40,365 nt of DNA from an uncultured Ectothiorhodospiraceae bacterium. GTDB taxonomy: Bacteria; Pseudomonadota; Gammaproteobacteria; UBA9214. Shown one piece after another: positions 9,862 to 26,531 of the stretch (its first letter is position 1; the number at the start of each line of letters is the position of its first letter). Location: positions 1 through 40,365 of the forward strand of contig CAMYIX010000082.1 in assembly GCA_947258615.1 (NCBI GenBank). The letters are read 5' to 3'. The notes below the pieces were generated by a model that worked only from the letters and a program-made list of their open reading frames with translations, searched no databases and was not told the DNA's origin. The translations under genes were made by a program, and so were the position numbers.

Positions 9862-9889
9862 CTAATACAAATGGGCTAATACAAACGGG
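9862..9889. promoter_or_regulatory. tandem 14-bp direct repeat, candidate operator
   Basis: CTAATACAAATGGG at 9862-9875 is followed directly by CTAATACAAACGGG at 9876-9889 (13 of 14 identical). The 13-mer ATGGGCTAATACA spanning the junction (9871-9883) recurs in inverted orientation at 17345-17357, just past the end of the cluster. Spacing and position suggest binding sites for a regulator, possibly the LuxR-type protein encoded at 10503, or the termini of a transferred segment. Neither is proved. Confidence 0.55.
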
Positions 9890-9963
9890 TAGTGCATGTC
9901 TAGGCCGTTTGTCTGATGTATATGCTACGTGATTGATTCTATAGTCGGTCACAGGGGCTTCTG

Positions 9964-9999
9964 ATGAGCAGCGGAACGATTGGGGGGGATCCTTGGTAG
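9964..9999 (+). other. possible 11-codon leader reading frame
   Basis: An ATG at 9964 preceded by CAGGGG opens an 11-codon frame (MSSGTIGGDPW) that stops at 9999, one base before the ATG of the next gene. Such spacing would let terminating ribosomes re-initiate. It may be chance, and I give it little weight. Confidence 0.2.
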
Positions 10000-10000
10000 C

Positions 10001-10282
10001 ATGACAATTCTGACGCATAAGCTGGGTATGGTTCTTGGGCTGGATCAGCCTGTTGACACCGAAAACCGCAGGCTTATCGAAGAGACTATTGCAGCAACAA
10101 CCGGAGTGGTCAGTGCTGACTTCAGTGTTGACCAGGCGGATATGGTGGTTGTCGAGTATGACCCCTATGTCACCTCACCCACAGAACTCCATCAAAATAT
10201 CAGGGATATCAACCCGGGGGCCGTCCTGAGGACCGTGTTTGTCAGTCGGCCACCTGCCGACGAGGAAGCCGAAACGACCTAG
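10001..10282 (+). CDS. small HMA-like ferredoxin-fold protein without metal-binding cysteines
   Basis: This 93-residue cytosolic protein has the beta-alpha-beta-beta-alpha-beta rhythm of heavy-metal-associated domains: RRLIEETIAATTGVVSADFS, then MVVVEYDPYVTSPTELHQNI, then VLRTVFVS. The usual CxxC metal site is absent and the protein has no cysteine at all, so direct copper or zinc binding through thiols is excluded. The C-terminus is acidic. The ATG at 10001 was chosen, with a G-rich stretch upstream; a TTG at 9980 is also in frame. It is first in the signalling cluster, 220 bp before the response regulator. I do not know its function; it could be a protein-interaction or non-metal ligand domain. 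Confidence 0.7.
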   Translation: MTILTHKLGMVLGLDQPVDTENRRLIEETIAATTGVVSADFSVDQADMVVVEYDPYVTSPTELHQNIRDINPGAVLRTVFVSRPPADEEAETT

Positions 10283-10502
10283 GGCCGGATGCTTGCCCGT
10301 TGTGTCTCCGGGATCAACGCTCTAGATCTACCGGACTTGGCTGTCGCCTTTCACCTGCAGATCATTGGTCCGGCCATCCCGATGGGCAGGGCCGGAAATC
10401 CGGGCTGTTTTATAGGTGGTTTATTTGCGTTTGCTCGGCAGGTAACAGTACCCTGTTGATAAACAAGGATAACGATATCGAAGGGGGTGATGCAGGTGCG
10501 CC

Positions 10503-11150
10503 ATGAAGATACTCATAGCCGATGACCACGGGATTGTCCGGGAAGGTATCAAGCTACTGCTGGCCGAGCTGTCGACGGAACTGTCCGTTCTGGAGGCCGC
10601 GGACAGCAAGCAGGTGCTCGCGGCCGTCTCCGAGAACCGCGATCTCGACCTGATCCTGCTTGATCTGTATATGCCCGGGGTCACCGATCTCGATCTGCTG
10701 GCCGAGATCTGCAACAGATATCCCCATATCCCCGTGATCATACTCTCGGCAACAGATGATGCCCGTGTCATGCAGCGTGTCATTGACCGCGGGGCGGCGG
10801 GATTCATACCGAAAAGTGCCGCACAGGCCGTGATGACCAGCGCCATCCAGCTGGTCCTGTCTGGTGGTGTCTACATACCGCCGGCAATGGTGCACCATCA
10901 TGAGGACGATGCCGCGAACCCTACAGCCAGGGTCACGCATGCCTCGCAGCTCGATCTCACAAACCGCCAGCTTGAAGTACTCAAACTCCTGGGTAAAGGC
11001 AAGTCCAACAAGACCATCGCCCGGGAACTGGGCTTGTCGGCCCATACCGTCAAGATCCATGTAACGGCCATATTCAAGGCGCTGGGGGTGAGCAACCGTA
11101 CCGAAGCTGCAATGGCGTCCCGGGAGATAGATATATCCCAACCAGGCTGA
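10503..11150 (+). CDS. NarL/LuxR-type response regulator
   Basis: The 215-residue regulator has an N-terminal receiver domain (about 1-120) with the acidic pair in IADDHG, the phospho-acceptor Asp54 in LILLDLYMPG, a switch Ser/Thr in IILSATDD and the conserved Lys in GFIPKSA. The C-terminal LuxR helix-turn-helix is LTNRQLEVLKLLGKGKSNKT followed by ARELGLSAHTVKIHVTAIFK. Phosphorylation normally promotes dimerisation and DNA binding. The hybrid kinase at 14496-17264 ends in an Hpt domain and is the obvious phosphodonor. Likely targets are the tandem repeats upstream of the cluster, which is inference. Confidence 0.93.
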   Translation: MKILIADDHGIVREGIKLLLAELSTELSVLEAADSKQVLAAVSENRDLDLILLDLYMPGVTDLDLLAEICNRYPHIPVIILSATDDARVMQRVIDRGAAGFIPKSAAQAVMTSAIQLVLSGGVYIPPAMVHHHEDDAANPTARVTHASQLDLTNRQLEVLKLLGKGKSNKTIARELGLSAHTVKIHVTAIFKALGVSNRTEAAMASREIDISQPG

Positions 11151-11264
11151 AGTTAAGCCTCGCGTCGCAGTCTTGCCCCGTACAGGGTGGCCAGCCAAGG
11201 AACGAGCAAGATAATAAAATCGTCAGGTCATGATCCTTCCAACACTCAACTATCCAGGGTGTAT

Positions 11265-13454
11265 ATGATGAAAATGAGCTGCCAGCTCAACCTGTTTGTC
11301 TGTTTTGCACCAGTGCTGGTCTTCTTGACCATGGGGGAGCCGTCGGCAGCGGAGTTACCGACGGAGGTGGATGTACTGGCCGAGATTCCGATGGTCAGTT
11401 CAGCGGCACGGCTACCACAGCGCCCGGAGGATTCTCCTGCGACAGTCACGGTGATCGATCGCGACATGATCCGGATGTCAGGAGCCATCAACCTGGCCGA
11501 TATCTTCCGGCTGATACCGGGCTTCCAGGTCGGGCACGTGACCGGCAATAAGTTCTCCGTGACCTCTCACGGGTTGGCGGACGAAATATCGCGCCGTCTG
11601 CTGGTCCTGGTTGACGGACGCTCCCTGCACACGGCATTCAACTCCGGGGTCGACTGGGCCAACACGCCGCTGGAGATCGAAGACATCGAGCGCATCGAGG
11701 TTATCAGCGGGCCAAATGTGGCCAGCTACGGTGCCAATGCCTTCAACGGTGTCGTCTATATCACCACCCGGCAGCCCTTCCAGGATCAGGGTACCTATAT
11801 CGGTATGACCGGTGGCAGCCAGGATACCGGCATCGGTAAGTTTCGGTATGGCGGTCGCACCTCGAACTTTGATTATCGTGTCAGCGGCAGTTATCGGGAG
11901 GATGACGGCTTTGACGATGTAAACGACGACACCGAGCAGGCCAGGCTTTCTTTTCGAGGCATCTATCAGAAAGACCTGCGTGACCAGTGGGATATCCAGC
12001 TGGGCCTGGCCCGGGGCGATTACGGCATCGGCCTGCCGAATGACCGGTTTACACCGGAGCGCACTGGAGAAAGAACCTCCCACCATGAATACCTGCGCTG
12101 GACGCGCACCCTGAATCCGACGGACTCGGTCTACGTTCAGTTCTATCACAACCGGTACCGGATGGATGATGATTTTACCATTGGCCCACTGTCTGAAGTC
12201 GTTTCCGAAGAACTGGGGGTTCCGATCTCGCCAGAGGTATTTGAAACGATACCCTGGGGATTCCCGCCCAATCAGTTCACGCTGGAGGACCAAACCATCC
12301 GCTACGGCCTGGATGATATCGAGACCGATCGCTACGATCTCGAGTTTCAGCACGTACTTCAACCGATTGATGACTTTCGTATGGCGTGGGGCGCCGGCCT
12401 GCGTTACGAAACCATCGAGGGTGAATACTGGCTTGATGGCGAAGAAGAAGATCTCGTATTACGCCTGTATGCAAACGGAGAGAAGAGGTTCACGGACCGC
12501 CTTGTTCTGAATCTGGGCGCGAATCTCGAGGACAATAATATTGTCGGGACGGAAATATCGCCCCGGGTTGCTTTTAATTATCATATATCGGACAGGCACA
12601 CCCTGCGCCTTGGCGCAGCACGCGCCTATCGCACGCCTTCGCTCCTGGAAAACCACTGGTCGAGTTATTTTGATTTCGACGGCGGCCCGCCGTTGGCCCG
12701 GCATATCAGTTATGGGCTGGACGATCCCGAGGAAATCACCTCTTACGAGATCGGGTATATCGCGAAATGGCCGGAACAGGCGCTGACGCTGGATATGAAA
12801 TTATACCGTGAACGCATTGATCCAATTATCAATAACGTCGATGACAAGCGTGACTTGACGCTTGATCCCTATGATATCGCAAGCTGGGTACAAATTCAGA
12901 ACAACGATGTGGGTTCAATCGATATCGACGGTTTTGAGGCGCGACTTGTATACAGGCCCAGGCAATCAGCTTTCCTGATGCTGACCTATTCCTATGCCAA
13001 TCCCGAGGGGATATTTCTTGACGAATACAGCGTATTTACACAGCAAGAGTTGGATTCCGGGGGGCTGGAATTCCTGACTTTCTGTCCGGCAGCGCCAGAT
13101 ATTATCGTCGTTTCGCCTGAGGAGCAAAGAGAGTATTACGCAACCTGCAGGACATTTTCGGATCGTGCGCCAGAGCATTCGTATAGCCTGCTTGCCGGTT
13201 ACCGTTTCGCATCCGGCTGGGAATCGAGTGTATCTGTATCCGGAACAAGCGCCTTTAACTGGTTCGGTGACGGTGACAACTTGCCGAGCCACACACGCGT
13301 CGACGTAAGACTGGCTAAGCAATTAAAGCTTGGAAGCTCGACTGCCCATGTCGCACTGATCGGACAAAACCTGGGCGGTGATTATCTGGAGTTTCGTGAC
13401 GATAATGTCTTCGAGACCCGGGCCTATCTCCAGTTTGGCCTGTCACTTCCATAA
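11265..13454 (+). CDS. TonB-dependent outer-membrane receptor
   Basis: The 729-residue protein starts with a signal peptide (MMKMSCQLNLFVCFAPVLVF, cut near PSAA). A plug domain follows (about 50-165: SPATVTVIDRDMIRMSGAIN, LADIFRLIPGF, LLVLVDGRS, IEDIERIEVISGPNVASYGA, GVVYITTR). The rest is a beta-barrel of alternating aromatic strands ending in YLQFGLSLP with a terminal hydrophobic residue, as outer-membrane barrels do. Such receptors import scarce ligands (metal chelates, cobalamin, glycans) using TonB energy; no ligand can be assigned. No TonB, ExbBD or ABC permease is adjacent. A GTG at 11187 is in frame but would bury the signal peptide. Base composition looks more AT-rich than in flanking housekeeping genes, which may mean transfer. 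Confidence 0.92.
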   Translation: MMKMSCQLNLFVCFAPVLVFLTMGEPSAAELPTEVDVLAEIPMVSSAARLPQRPEDSPATVTVIDRDMIRMSGAINLADIFRLIPGFQVGHVTGNKFSVTSHGLADEISRRLLVLVDGRSLHTAFNSGVDWANTPLEIEDIERIEVISGPNVASYGANAFNGVVYITTRQPFQDQGTYIGMTGGSQDTGIGKFRYGGRTSNFDYRVSGSYREDDGFDDVNDDTEQARLSFRGIYQKDLRDQWDIQLGLARGDYGIGLPNDRFTPERTGERTSHHEYLRWTRTLNPTDSVYVQFYHNRYRMDDDFTIGPLSEVVSEELGVPISPEVFETIPWGFPPNQFTLEDQTIRYGLDDIETDRYDLEFQHVLQPIDDFRMAWGAGLRYETIEGEYWLDGEEEDLVLRLYANGEKRFTDRLVLNLGANLEDNNIVGTEISPRVAFNYHISDRHTLRLGAARAYRTPSLLENHWSSYFDFDGGPPLARHISYGLDDPEEITSYEIGYIAKWPEQALTLDMKLYRERIDPIINNVDDKRDLTLDPYDIASWVQIQNNDVGSIDIDGFEARLVYRPRQSAFLMLTYSYANPEGIFLDEYSVFTQQELDSGGLEFLTFCPAAPDIIVVSPEEQREYYATCRTFSDRAPEHSYSLLAGYRFASGWESSVSVSGTSAFNWFGDGDNLPSHTRVDVRLAKQLKLGSSTAHVALIGQNLGGDYLEFRDDNVFETRAYLQFGLSLP

Positions 13455-13506
13455 GCCTGCTGGTATCGAATGAGGCATCAGGCACGAACTCCTTCATGAT
13501 AAGAAG

Positions 13507-14499
13507 ATGAAGTGGGAAATAAAGGCAGGATTGCTTGCGCTGCTGTTATGCGGCGTATGGGCGGTATTGCATCCTGCCATGGCGGCCGAGTTCACGCCAC
13601 GGATTCTCCTGCTTCTCAGCGGCGACACCGAGGTGCATCTGAAAACCATGCGTGGTTTCAAGGAGCGTCTTGATGAATACGGAAGCATCACGGCCATCCT
13701 GGATGTAAAAAAACTGGGCGACGCTGAGCGGGCTGATGAAATCAGTCTTTCCAATCCGGGCAGTGACCTGGTACTCGCCATTGGCACGCGTGCTACACGC
13801 ATGGCGGCAGAGGCTGACGTCGGTATCCCGATGCTGAGCATTGTGGTGCCGAAGATCACATTTAATGGCCTGATGGATTCCTCGGTATCGGTAAAGAAGC
13901 GTCACGAGGCCGGCAAGTTTTCCGGTATCGTACTCGACCAGCCGCCCTTGCGCAGGATGCGTCTGGCCAGGATCCTGCTGCCTGACTTATCAAGGATCGG
14001 CCTACTGCTTGGGCCGACCTCGCAACTGGAAGCCGATGAATACGTATCGGCGGCCAAACAGGCCGATGTCCAGCTGAATATCTCGGCGGTGGGTAGCGAC
14101 ACGAACCCGATACCGGCCATTGAAGCGCTGTTAAAGGGAAATGATGCCTTGCTGGCGGTGTACGACAGTGTGGCGCTTAATCCGAGTACCGCCAAGTGGT
14201 TGTTATACCTTTCCTATCAGAATCGCATACCGGTTATCGGTTTCTCCAGGGCCTATGTCGACGCCGGCGCCCTGGCTGCTGTCTATTCGACCCCTGAACA
14301 GATCGGTCGCCAGGCGGCGGAGGTGGTCTATGACTTTGTGAATGGCAAGTCAGGAAGTCTCCCGCTGCAGGTCTATCCGAAATACTACAGTATCGGGCTA
14401 AACAGCTCTGTTGCCCGTTCAATAGGCCTGTCCTTGCCCGATGAAGAGAGTCTTCAGCGGCAATTGAAGCAGCTCGAGCCAAGCGGGCCTGTGCAATGA
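13507..14499 (+). CDS. periplasmic ABC-type substrate-binding protein, probably a sensor component
   Basis: The 330-residue protein has a signal peptide (residues 1-26, ending AMAA) and then a two-lobe periplasmic-binding fold of the ABC_sub_bind (PF04392-like) type. Landmarks are ILLLLSGDTEVHLKTMRGF, DLVLAIGTRATRMA, IPMLSIVVP, RIGLLLGPTSQLEADEYV, ALLAVYDSVALNPSTAKWLL and IPVIGFSRAYVDAGALAAVY. It overlaps the next gene by four bases (ATGA), so binding protein and kinase are translationally coupled. No permease or ATPase is nearby, so I infer that it presents a ligand to the kinase, in the manner of TorT-TorS or LuxP-LuxQ, rather than feeding a transporter. Confidence 0.85.
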   Translation: MKWEIKAGLLALLLCGVWAVLHPAMAAEFTPRILLLLSGDTEVHLKTMRGFKERLDEYGSITAILDVKKLGDAERADEISLSNPGSDLVLAIGTRATRMAAEADVGIPMLSIVVPKITFNGLMDSSVSVKKRHEAGKFSGIVLDQPPLRRMRLARILLPDLSRIGLLLGPTSQLEADEYVSAAKQADVQLNISAVGSDTNPIPAIEALLKGNDALLAVYDSVALNPSTAKWLLYLSYQNRIPVIGFSRAYVDAGALAAVYSTPEQIGRQAAEVVYDFVNGKSGSLPLQVYPKYYSIGLNSSVARSIGLSLPDEESLQRQLKQLEPSGPVQ

Positions 14500-17264
14500 T
14501 TGGCTGGTTCAATAGCCGGAGTATCAGGACCCGTGTACTGATCAGCGCACTCGTTCCACTGGTTGTCGTCACCGTGACATTGGGGTATTACATGACAGTG
14601 TCCCATTTGCGTGATATCGATCAGCAACTGGTTCAGCGCGGGACCGCACTGGTCAATTCCCTTGCACCCTTGAGTGAGTTCGGGCTGTTTGCTAAAAACC
14701 GGGAAATGCTCTATCCGGTATTGCAGCGTGCGCTTGATGAACCCGATGTGCAGGCTGTTGTTATTCTCGATGCTGAGAAGAATGTAATCCTGCAGGGGGG
14801 AAGCGGTACGTCAAAAGCTGAAACGGCTGCAGAACAACTGAAGTCGCGGGAGGCGTTGCTGGTCTTTACGGCGCCGATCCAATCAAGCCAGGTAGAGATA
14901 TCGGATTTCCCACTGAGTGATTCGAAGGAAGTTGGCAAGTCAGACGTGAATACACTAGGCTGGATTGAAGTCCATATTTCGAGGGAATCAACCCAGACGC
15001 GCCGACTCCAGATACTGCGTAACAGTACCCTGATGGTGCTAGCCGGAATCTTGCTCAGCATCCTGCTGGCGTTGATGATCGGGCGCAGCGTAACCCGACC
15101 GTTGGGGAATATCATCGACACTGTCAGCCAGTTGCGTAGAGGGCGTCTCGAGGAAAGGGCCCCGGTCGAGTTCGGTGGCGAACTTGCGACCCTGGGCGAA
15201 GGCATTAATGCTATGGCCTCGACGATCGGCCAGGCGCAGGACAGACTCGCTGCCGAAGTCAGTCAGGCCACCTCTGACCTGAGAAGTACGGTGAAGAGCC
15301 TTGAAAACAGGAACCGGGAACTTGATGAAGCGCGCAAAGAGGCCTTGCAGGCGGGTGAGGCGAAAGCAGAATTTCTGGCCAAGATGAGCCATGAAATCCG
15401 CACCCCCCTGAATGCCGTTATCGGATTCTCCAGCCTGCTCGAGAAAACGCAGCAAACGGAACAGCAGAGGGAATATACCACTACCGTGTCACAGGCTGCG
15501 TCTGCATTGCTCTCTGTGATTGACGACATTCTCAATATTTCCAGGCTGGAGTCCGGTTCGCTGGTCATCGAACCGACGCTTTTCGACTTGCGTGATTCTC
15601 TCGAGAATGTTGTCACTATGCTGAGTGCTGCTGCCCATGAAAAAGGCCTCGAACTGGTGTTGAACCTGCATTCTGATGTGCCCGCGAAGATATTTACCGA
15701 CGGTAACCGCATCAATCAGATTGTCAGCAATCTGTTGAACAATGCGATCAAGTTCACCGAAAGCGGGTTTGTGGTTCTGGAGGTGTCGGTGGCGGAGGTC
15801 GATGAGCCACACATAACCACCCGTATCGAAGTAACTGATACGGGAATTGGCCTGAGTGCAGAGGAAGCGAAATTTGTGTTTCAACCATTTCGGCAGGCAA
15901 GTTCCGCAACCAGCCGTCAGTATGGCGGGACGGGTCTCGGGCTCTCAATCTGCAAGGAGATGGTTGGACTGCTCGGTGGTGAAATGGGACTCAAGAGTAT
16001 CCCGGGGCAGGGCTCTACGTTCTGGTTCACGGTTCCGGCCAGGATGTCTGAGGCGGCTGATCGGCAAACCCGGCACTACCTGGCAGGCGCCAAGGTGCTC
16101 GTTTACGACAAAAACGACTACTCGCGCAGGGCCTTGCGGAACCGTTTCATCACCTGGGGTGCCAGTGTCTTCAATATGGGCGAATGGGACAAATCACTCG
16201 GTTTTCTGCATTCAGCGCAAGCCGGTGAGGAACCCTGCCATTTGCTGGTGATCGGACTGTCACCTCAGGATATCAGTGAGGCTGTCATCGGCGACCTGCT
16301 GGATGCCACTGCCGCATGGCCCGCGCTTCCGGTTTTGATCCTGGTTGGGGGAGATTCCGGTAAGTTAGGAGCCGCAGTCCCGGGTGACCGCATCGTCCAG
16401 GTGGCACCCAAGCCTGCGTTGAGTAATGCCCTGTTGAGGTCCGTGCGCGGGCTGCTCGGGATGCCTCAGGGCCTGTCAGAAAATGACCTGAGATCGCCTG
16501 CATCCAGCGGCGTGGTCGCCGGTGGCGATTTTGAGGGAATGCGGCTGCTGGTCGCGGAGGATAACCGCTTCAACCGCGAGTTGATCATACGGCTGCTGAA
16601 TGATCTGGGCGTCTCTGTACAGATGGCAGTTGATGGCCGGGAAGCCGCGCATTGTGCCATGCAGGAGATGTTTGACCTTGTCCTGATGGATATCCATATG
16701 CCGGAAATGGGAGGTGTGCATGCGGCACAGCTTATTCGCGAGGGACTGAACAAACAGACACCGATTGTCGCCCTGACAGCAGATGTGTTTGCAGATCGCA
16801 ACCAGAGCCTGGATGCAATCGGTATCGATGACTGCATATACAAGCCGATCACCGATAACAAGCTGATCGAGGTTCTTTACAAGTGGGTCAACAGGCGCCG
16901 GAGTGTGACCCGACTCCGTGGTTCGGCCGGCTCTGACCAGCCGGAGGAGGCTGGTTTTAGCCGTGAACACCGGAATGGCGCAATACCGGATGAGCTGGTC
17001 CGTCTGCTGCATGAAGAGTTGAGCGTGCAGCTGCAGGGCCTGCGCACTGCCCTGGGTGACAAGGATGTCGAGGGAATGCGTGACCATACGCATCAACTCA
17101 AGGGGCTGACGGGTTATTTCGGGTTGAGCGGGCTCCACGAAAAGATCGGTCTGTTTCAGCGGGCGGTTTCTGCCGGAGAGCACGCACAGGGTGCTGCCGT
17201 GCTCGGGGAGCTTGAAGCCATGGCGAATGACATCGTGAACAGCCGGGCTGTGTCGGGGGAATAA
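14496..17264 (+). CDS. BarA-like hybrid sensor histidine kinase with receiver and Hpt domains
   Basis: The 922-residue inner-membrane kinase has membrane segments at about 14-34 and 178-198 bracketing a periplasmic sensor region whose [20 protein letters not shown] resembles BarA/CHASE8 sensors. Next come HAMP (about 198-250), a coiled coil, and the dimerisation domain with His299 in [11 protein letters not shown]. The ATPase has [16 protein letters not shown] and GGTGLGL. A degenerate receiver (about 532-655) lacks the phospho-acceptor. A functional receiver has EDN at 688-690, Asp732 in [11 protein letters not shown] and Lys783. The C-terminal Hpt domain has His866 in HTHQLKG. The His-Asp-His relay can pass phosphate to the response regulator at 10503. 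It is coupled to the binding-protein gene upstream, its likely input. Confidence 0.95.
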
Positions 17265-17344
17265 CCGCCTGCCGTCCAGCCATGTCCCTGGGTTTGCACC
17301 GGACCGCTGACCACTTCGTCACGCCAGGCCGGTACTAGTACATC

Positions 17345-17357
17345 TGTATTAGCCCAT
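17345..17357. repeat. inverted copy of 13-bp cluster-boundary sequence
   Basis: TGTATTAGCCCAT here is the exact reverse complement of ATGGGCTAATACA at 9871-9883. It sits 81 bases past the stop of the hybrid kinase, so the two copies bracket the whole five-gene cluster in inverted orientation. Confidence 0.6.
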
Positions 17358-24523: not shown

Positions 24524-25069
24524 ATGACGCAAGATGCAAACAACCTTATCTGGATCGATCTGGAGATGACCGGCCTCGACACCATGAAGGATTACATCAT
24601 CGAGATCGCGACCGTCGTCACCGACGGCAAGCTGAACATCGTGGCGGAGGGTCCGGTTCTGGCGATACACCAGGCGGACGAGATTATGAACGGCATGGAC
24701 GAGTGGAACACCCGGCAGCACGGTAAGTCCGGCCTGACCGAGCGGGTCCGCACCAGCAGCCTGGACGAGGGTATGGCCGAGCGCCAGACGCTGGAATTCC
24801 TGGCGCAGCATGTCCCATCCAATACCTCGCCGATGTGCGGCAACAGTATTTGCCAGGACCGGCGCTTCCTGGCGCGCTGCATGCCCGAGCTGGAACGCTT
24901 CTTTCATTACCGCAACCTCGACGTCAGCACCATCAAGGAGCTCGCGGGCCGCTGGTCGCCGGACGTGGCCAGGGGTTTCACCAAGGGCGGCACCCACCTC
25001 GCCATGGACGACGTGAAGGATTCAATCCGCGAGCTGCAGTACTACCGGGAAAAACTGTTCAGGTTGTAA
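24524..25069 (+). CDS. orn: oligoribonuclease
   Basis: The 181-residue 3'-5' exoribonuclease degrades two- to five-base RNA remnants, including pGpG from cyclic-di-GMP breakdown. All DEDDh catalytic residues are present: Asp12 and Glu14 in [11 protein letters not shown], Asp112 in [11 protein letters not shown], and His158 with Asp163 in [14 protein letters not shown]. Length matches E. coli. The ATG at 24524 follows GGAAGGGAAG; the open frame further upstream is not used. The facing arrangement with M48 and rsgA is common in gammaproteobacteria. Confidence 0.97.
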
Positions 25070-25077
25070 CCCGCATT

Positions 25078-25658
25078 TCTCACTGCGGAGTCGCGGAGGA
25101 CGCAGAGAAAAACAGCAAATAAAGATTCACCGCAAAGGCGCAAAGAGCGCAAAGACTCAATAATTCAAAAAACAGATTCACCGCACGACTGCATGGACGA
25201 TGTATATGGACGTACAAGTGTCGCGAGAGGGCAGGATGCCCAAAGCGACGGCAGGAGGTAGAGTTACGCATGGAGCAGTTACCGGAAGGGCGCAAAGTCA
25301 AAAAACAATAATTCACCGCAAAGACGCGAAGGGCGCAAAGAAAGAAATAACTATTTCAAAATCTCCATGAATCTGGCTATGTAGCAACATGGGAAATTGA
25401 TATTTACCAAGAATTCCTTTTTTAGACTCATATTTCGTCATTCCGGCGAAGGCCGGAATCCAGCAACTGGTTGATTGGCTGAAAGAGATTGCTTCCATTC
25501 GTTCGCAATGATGTGGGGCATGAAAACCGCATGCAGGCTTGCTATTCCCCGTATCGGGGTTTTTCACAATAATTATATTTTCTTTGCGCTCTTTGCGCCT
25601 TTGCGGTGAACATGTTTTTTAATATTTCTCTCTGCGTCCTCCGCGACTCCGCGGTGAG
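25078..25658. repeat. 580-bp nested palindromic repeat island
   Basis: The outer arms are CACTGCGGAGTCGCGGAGGA (from 25081) and TCCTCCGCGACTCCGCGGTG (about 25637-25656). The next arms are TTCACCGCAAAGGCGCAAAG (about 25127) and CTTTGCGCCTTTGCGGTGAA (about 25592-25611). Inside are the CACCGCACGACTGCATGGA segment, about 55 extra bases absent from the copy at 20919, then GGAGGTAGAGTTACGCATGG, and another TTCACCGCAAAGACGCGAAG arm at 25314. The order suggests successive insertion of related elements into each other. Confidence 0.75.
25436..25463. repeat. GTCATTCCGGCGAAGGCCGGAATCC-type hairpin repeat
   Basis: CATTCCGGC and GCCGGAATC form a compact hairpin around GAAG. This dispersed intergenic repeat is found in many proteobacterial genomes, recognised from memory. 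Here it sits inside the larger repeat island, between two arms of a different family. Confidence 0.75.
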
Positions 25659-25715
25659 TTATTGTGTGTTAAAAACGCCGATCCAGTTCGGCCCGGTACC
25701 GGGCTGCCCCGACGG

Positions 25716-26531
25716 TTACTCGATGGGCAAGTCGGGGTTGTTGCCCCAGTCCGACCAGGACCCGGCATAGCCTCTGACGCGCTGGAAACCCAGGTGCTTC
25801 AGTACCATGTAGGTGTGAGCGGAGCGGTGATGACTCTGGCAGTAAACGATGATTTCCTTGTCGGGCATGATGCCGATGTCCGCGAGCAGTTGCTTCAGCT
25901 CGACATCGGGCTTGAAGCGCAGGTTGAGGTTCTGCGCCATGGCGTTGGTCCATTCGAAATTGACAGCACCCGGGATATGGCCGGCGCGCTCGGCGAATTT
26001 CCGGTTGCCGTGGTATTCGTCCGGACTGCGCACGTCCAGCAGGCGGGTGTCCGCCGAGTCCAGCCGTTCCAGGATGTAGTCGCTGCTGGCGCAGGGCCCG
26101 TCGTTGTGTACCACCCGGAATTCAGCCGGGGTTGGGGTGACCGGTGTGGCGTCACAGGGGTTGCCTTCATTGGCCCAGGCGTGCAGTCCGCCGTTTACCA
26201 GTGAATAGCGCCGGTGCCCGGCGACCTCGAGGGTCCACAGGAGACGCGCGGCCCGGCCGCCACCCTCGTCATCGTAGGCGACCACGTGGGTATCGGCATT
26301 GATGCCCAGCGAGGAGAACACCCGTTGCAGGGTGTCATCGTCCGGCAGCAGGCCCATGACGGGCCGGCTGCTGGCCACGATCCGGGCGTAATCGAGAAAC
26401 ACGGCGCCCGGGACGTGCAGTTTCCGGTAGGTATCGGCCTTGCCCAGGTCGACAATCAGTACGTTATCGTAACCCATTGTTACTTCGAGAGTATCAGGTT
26501 CGATCAGCAGGGGGAGCTGGAGTTCGGTCAT
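25716..26531 (-). CDS. thiosulfate / 3-mercaptopyruvate sulfurtransferase (two rhodanese domains)
   Basis: The 271-residue enzyme has tandem rhodanese domains. The N-terminal one (about 5-130: VLIVDLGKADTYRKLHVPGA) has Asp in place of the active Cys (VAYDDEGGGRAARL), as in inactive leading domains. The C-terminal one (about 150-270: RLLDVRSPDEYHG, GHIPGAVNFEW) has Cys231 in YCQSHHRSAHT. This loop is neither the classic rhodanese CRKGVT nor MST CGTGVT, so the sulfur donor is uncertain. The start at 26531 overlaps the glcF stop by four bases (ATGA), so it is translated with glycolate oxidase, an unexpected partner. Confidence 0.9.
   Translation of the reverse strand: MTELQLPLLIEPDTLEVTMGYDNVLIVDLGKADTYRKLHVPGAVFLDYARIVASSRPVMGLLPDDDTLQRVFSSLGINADTHVVAYDDEGGGRAARLLWTLEVAGHRRYSLVNGGLHAWANEGNPCDATPVTPTPAEFRVVHNDGPCASSDYILERLDSADTRLLDVRSPDEYHGNRKFAERAGHIPGAVNFEWTNAMAQNLNLRFKPDVELKQLLADIGIMPDKEIIVYCQSHHRSAHTYMVLKHLGFQRVRGYAGSWSDWGNNPDLPIE

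Follow-up and report, generated by a model that had tools for sequence, protein, structure and literature searches.

What does a gene cluster do that places an outer-membrane receptor ahead of a periplasmic binding protein and a sensor kinase, with no permease or ATP-binding cassette (ABC) ATPase gene adjoining the binding protein? Such a cluster lies on contig CAMYIX010000082.1 (assembly GCA_947258615.1) of an uncultured Ectothiorhodospiraceae bacterium, of which we analyzed positions 1 to 40,365, a stretch of 40,365 nucleotides (hereafter, the window). A first reading, made from the sequence alone, had proposed a five-gene ligand-sensing system whose binding protein is part of a sensor rather than of a transporter. 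Open reading frame calls and Pfam searches confirmed that five genes of the kinds named are present, all on the + strand between 9980 and 17264, and that neither a permease nor an ATPase is encoded next to the binding protein. The features of this module are as follows:

10001..10282 (a TTG start at 9980 is possible), + strand: HMA-like protein of 93 amino acids without cysteine (PF00403, 22.5 bits, below the cut-off of 24.8)
10503..11150, + strand: NarL-type response regulator, REC (D54) and GerE (Pfam, phospho-site)
11262..13454, + strand: TonB-dependent receptor (TBDR), Plug and barrel (Pfam; NF053590, 223.5 bits)
13507..14499, + strand: periplasmic PF04392 solute-binding protein (SBP) (Pfam, 55.1 bits, cut-off 25.9)
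14496..17264, + strand: BarA-like hybrid kinase, sCache_4-HAMP-HisKA-HATPase-REC-Hpt (Pfam, phospho-sites)
14496..15260, + strand: front end of the sensor, periplasmic sCache_4 and HAMP (Pfam on ten relatives, AlphaFold2 (AF2) and Foldseek, trees)

The stop codon of the SBP gene and the ATG of the kinase gene overlap as ATGA (14496-14499), in agreement with the translational coupling first read from the sequence. We consider it probable that the module is a dedicated trans-envelope sensor, namely a TBDR-fed, SBP-dependent three-component system.

Conservation of the receptor, binding-protein and sensor genes

A search based on the SBP alone was run on 369 genomes representing the class, and 70 of them had a homologue at E ≤ 1e-15. 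To these were added further loci, giving a non-redundant set of 122 that combines 60 neighborhoods from the class and order SBP searches with 80 from a scan of named contigs, the window included; the scan used an alignment of 10 SBP sequences, an alignment of 46 being too divergent. The carriers are many Pseudomonadota, chiefly Gammaproteobacteria, with cultivable representatives in Sedimenticola, Zoogloea, Aromatoleum and Neptunomonas. In 114 of 119 loci the gene directly 3' of the SBP encodes a sensor whose N-terminal region is the same, and in 88 of 118 the gene directly 5' of it encodes a TBDR. In the subset of 61 loci from the class sample and the window's order, which were found by the SBP alone, the sensor lay directly downstream in 56 of 60 and the TBDR directly upstream in 47 of 60. 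The junction between SBP and sensor was most often a 4-base overlap (77 of 115), a count biased to short distances by choosing the start nearest the stop. The grouping of the three genes is far beyond chance. A phylum-wide search also revealed the same gene order outside the class, where the sensor is a HAMP-PAS-kinase-REC protein. Loci without a TBDR, in which the order is response regulator, SBP and kinase, occur as well. Two of the exceptions to the rule that the sensor follows the SBP, L082 and L084, have the reversed order, with the kinase gene before the SBP gene and still adjacent to it.

The conserved neighborhoods therefore do not split the TBDR, SBP and kinase genes, and it is these three, not the five genes originally grouped together, that form the conserved unit. 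We rejected the five-gene unit because the HMA-like gene was found only in this genus and the regulator at a minority of loci.

Predicted phosphorelay, exchanged outputs and accessory genes

The kinase has all phospho-sites of the His-Asp-His relay attributed to it earlier, H299 in HisKA, D732 in REC and H866 in Hpt. The AF2 model of its periplasmic part (predicted local distance difference test score, pLDDT, 88.7) is Cache-like, and Foldseek matched it to the LapD-type structure 4u64 and to the sensor domains of WalK and CitA. According to Pfam, the part that follows this sCache_4-HAMP front in ten relatives is GGDEF alone, GGDEF-EAL, PAS-GGDEF-EAL or HisKA-HATPase-REC, the last either followed by Hpt or lacking it; sCache_4 is below detection in L103 and HAMP in L126. 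For the full set of loci, outputs were labeled by rough text patterns, the ten relatives being those checked with Pfam. Mapped onto an SBP tree, the kinase/GGDEF label changes seven times, at least four of them forced by starred branches; on a tree of the sCache-HAMP region it changes five times, at least three of them forced, both being quick trees with some long branches. Together, the trees indicate that the sensor output was exchanged in evolution between the kinase relay and enzymes of cyclic di-GMP (c-di-GMP) turnover, while the front remained constant.

The response regulator gene is biased toward one type of output. Of 92 kinase-type loci, 25 had a NarL-type regulator nearby, compared with 0 of 24 GGDEF-type loci (Fisher p = 0.0018, relatedness of the loci uncorrected), which is the pattern expected if the regulator receives phosphate from the kinase. 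The earlier proposal that it does so is hence supported indirectly, and the regulator, composed of REC with the phospho-acceptor D54 and GerE, is likely the relay target. The HMA-like protein, judging from its distribution, is a genus-level accessory outside the conserved core. It is cysteine-free, as had been noted, and thus has no CxxC metal site, and its match to PF00403 is below the cut-off; its assignment to the system did not hold, as it adjoins the module only in this genus, with orthologues only beside the module in the genus mates G002 (two copies) and G003 and weak matches elsewhere. The two copies in G002 are in tandem upstream of the module (L036:12482-13456, - strand).

The binding protein and the proposed signaling route

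The N-terminus of the SBP reads, by eye, as a Sec signal peptide. Its AF2 model (pLDDT 91.6) has a type I SBP fold, and the top matches in the PDB are CD0873 and the TrpX-type structures 3lft and 3lkv, followed by XylFII (in complex with LytS) and LuxP. The protein scores 51.8 bits against the TrpX model NF041285 (cut-off 390), and its gene adjoins no permease or ATPase gene. Since the motifs common to 3lkv, 3lft and CD0873 (T-P, S-D and D-N) differ in the SBPs of the module (VGTRA, LDQP and PDP), it would be unsafe to assume that the ligand is an aromatic amino acid. Residues G93, D144-Q145-P146-R149, D220, S247-A255 and N299 are retained even between highly divergent members, which suggests a conserved predicted ligand site.

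We also looked for a dedicated permease elsewhere in the genomes. Permeases of PF02653, which we take to be the usual family for SBPs of this kind, were present in 12 of 14 control genomes. Among the 13 module genomes searched, G000, G002, G003 and seven others had none. The permease search covered one further family, PF06541, a poor choice of partner, which was absent from G000, G002 and G003. The genomes of G002 and G003 are 93-95% complete. Because the TBDR, SBP and kinase genes remain unsplit and the genus yielded no permease dedicated to the SBP, the view that the SBP is part of a sensor is well supported.

In the route that we propose, the TBDR would import, or report, a specific external compound to the periplasm, powered by TonB proteins encoded elsewhere; as the receptor would need, TonB_C proteins are encoded elsewhere in the window's genome and are also present in both genus mates. 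The SBP would bind this compound and hand none of it to an ABC transporter. Once loaded, it would act on the sCache_4 periplasmic domain of the sensor whose gene overlaps its own, and HAMP would transmit the change inward. In the window's kinase, phosphate would then pass from H299 to D732 and H866 and most likely to D54 of the adjoining NarL-type regulator, which would probably control its own operon, the genes for ligand use or both. In relatives whose output is GGDEF or GGDEF-EAL, this front end could set c-di-GMP instead.

Several observations weigh against this reading. An adjacent TBDR is missing at 30 of 118 loci, and therefore the receptor is either not strictly required or encoded elsewhere. 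Three loci (L070, L091 and L114) are TBDR-SBP pairs with no recognized sensor adjoining the SBP, and 67 of the 92 kinase loci had no NarL regulator nearby in the stretch that was fetched. Permeases of PF02653 are present in the module genomes G331, G268 and G341, their link to the SBP not being shown, and the genome that carries the window is only 65% complete. The distance-matrix correlations (SBP/sCache 0.78, SBP/TBDR 0.80 and SBP/kinase core 0.67) fit co-evolution and, being uncorrected for species history, carry little weight.

One alternative is an orphaned ABC uptake operon, in which the SBP passes the ligand of the TBDR to a distant permease, while the kinase senses something else directly by its Cache domain and merely regulates. 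Those PF04392 proteins whose structures are known bind aromatic amino acids and carry annotations as SBPs of ABC transport, and three module genomes do have PF02653 permeases. However, this family is absent from the two well-sampled genus mates, as is PF06541, and the SBP is coupled to a sensor in 114 of the 119 loci, even when the output is GGDEF-EAL, so that we regard an uptake operon as unlikely. We give slightly more credence, while still doubting it, to an SBP that binds no small molecule and serves as a protein relay between the plug or barrel of the TBDR and the Cache domain, reporting receptor occupancy as YfiR does in YfiBNR-like systems. The divergent readings of the 3lkv, 3lft and CD0873 motifs would suit such a relay, as would the parallel clusters described below, in which YfiR/DUF4154 stands between a related TBDR and a CHASE8-HAMP kinase or GGDEF-EAL protein. 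It fits less well with the cleft fold, predicted with high confidence, with the residues kept across divergent members, and with the loci that have no adjacent TBDR.

It is also conceivable, if highly improbable, that the kinase is the cell's BarA/GacS global regulator and follows the receptor genes by chance. The whole domain order, sCache_4-HAMP-HisKA-HATPase-REC-Hpt, is that of BarA/GacS, the best NCBIfam match of the kinase is BarA (NF008318, 595.6 bits), and no sCache_4 protein besides the kinase of the module was found in G000, G002 and G003. Its score is nevertheless below the cut-off of 890, and the regulator beside it is not UvrY/GacA (91 bits against NF007018, cut-off 280), on which grounds we rejected it as a BarA orthologue. 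Unlike BarA/GacS, it is coupled to an SBP and partnered by a different NarL-type regulator. Moreover, relatives replace the kinase by GGDEF-EAL, and no sCache_4 protein was found in G004, a complete genus mate without the module. Overall, the SBP-dependent sensor fed by a TBDR is the explanation that we favor.

Related systems and history of the locus

The TBDR consists of Plug and barrel with no other N-terminal domain; in particular, Pfam detected no FecA-type N-terminal signaling domain. The nearest named receptor family is that of TOL_0244 of Thalassolituus and OmpS of Alcanivorax, TBDRs tied to long-chain alkanes, of which OmpS was reported to be necessary for alkane detection (PMC6304351). 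The TBDR of the window is a distant relative (223.5 bits against NF053590, cut-off 645), and all 60 module TBDRs match this model, with a best E of only 1.2e-74 and with scores far under the TOL_0244 cut-off. We thus rejected the identity of an alkane receptor on score, and draw no conclusion on alkanes as ligands.

Receptors of the TOL_0244 type also head a parallel set of clusters (L206-L225, e.g., L206:3467-9217), in which the TBDR is followed by YfiR/DUF4154 and then by a CHASE8-HAMP kinase or a GGDEF-EAL protein. Two of these clusters, L208 and L209, are in genomes of the window's family. Like the module, they combine a related TBDR, a small periplasmic protein and a HAMP sensor with a swappable output, whereas YfiR/DUF4154 takes the place of the PF04392 SBP, and CHASE8 that of sCache_4. 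The same plan built from other parts suggests a general design. We tentatively propose, as a possibility that we hold to be less than even, a general and undescribed class of signaling systems in Pseudomonadota, in which a TBDR, a periplasmic adaptor (PF04392 SBP or YfiR) and a Cache/CHASE-HAMP sensor would act on interchangeable phosphorelay or c-di-GMP outputs, and receptor activity would be read without a sigma/anti-sigma pair.

An extracytoplasmic or periplasmic binding protein that sits beside a sensor kinase and serves no transporter is shared with LuxP-LuxQ, TorT-TorS, XylFII-LytS and CuaD-CuaS-CuaR, the last of which has its SBP gene beside those of kinase and regulator (PMC10384115). 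The module likewise encodes its SBP next to a sensor that has a periplasmic domain, with no PF02653 or PF06541 permease found in G000, G002 and G003, and XylFII and LuxP are among the fold matches of its SBP. It differs from these systems in its PF04392 SBP, its sCache_4 sensor, the TBDR that heads the operon and the alternation of kinase with GGDEF or GGDEF-EAL outputs. TBDRs are usually taken as nutrient importers, and their known signaling runs via sigma/anti-sigma pairs. Outer-membrane TBDRs are coupled to signaling in FecA-FecR-FecI cell-surface signaling and in the SusCD systems of Bacteroidetes with their hybrid two-component sensors. In contrast to these, the module has a TBDR without an N-terminal signaling domain, no sigma/anti-sigma pair, and an SBP between receptor and sensor. 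No description of a system of TBDR, SBP and kinase or GGDEF protein was found in the open-access literature; the TBDR coupling, the PF04392 and sCache_4 parts and the output swapping look undescribed among SBP-dependent three-component systems. If the proposed route is true, it would be a second path by which events at the outer membrane could act on gene control or c-di-GMP. As the gene order pairs TBDR, SBP and sensor, it would also offer a direct way to the ligands of many orphan TBDRs via the soluble SBP.

Finally, the module occupies ~8 kb between sdaA and ffs-dnaX, where ffs is the 4.5S SRP RNA gene (RF00169, 18034-18126) directly before dnaX. In the genus mates G002 and G003, too, it lies between sdaA and dnaX, while in G004 (100% complete) the gap between these genes is 875 bases and holds nothing of the module. 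The module was therefore either gained or lost here. The stretch around the 4.5S RNA gene is kept in G004, and is near-identical in another genus. We rejected spread by plasmid, as a search of plasmid sequences returned no full-length relative of the SBP.

Identity to G002 and G003 is 92-93% for sdaA, 85-87% for dnaX, 80-82% for the regulator, 71% for the kinase and 63% for the SBP. The TBDR diverges more than any other gene at the locus and evolves fastest within the module, with 52-55% identity to its counterparts at L036 and L037, where the flanks have 85-93%, as if the receptor were under diversifying pressure. A scan for promoters and terminators gave no signal above shuffled sequence. 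The module is more AT-rich than its neighbors, as first noted from the sequence, both in overall GC content (55.6%, compared with 62.1% in the rest of the window) and at third codon positions (63-70%, compared with 77-81% in sdaA, dnaX and recR). A second dip in GC content (51%) is located at 25001-26000 of the window.

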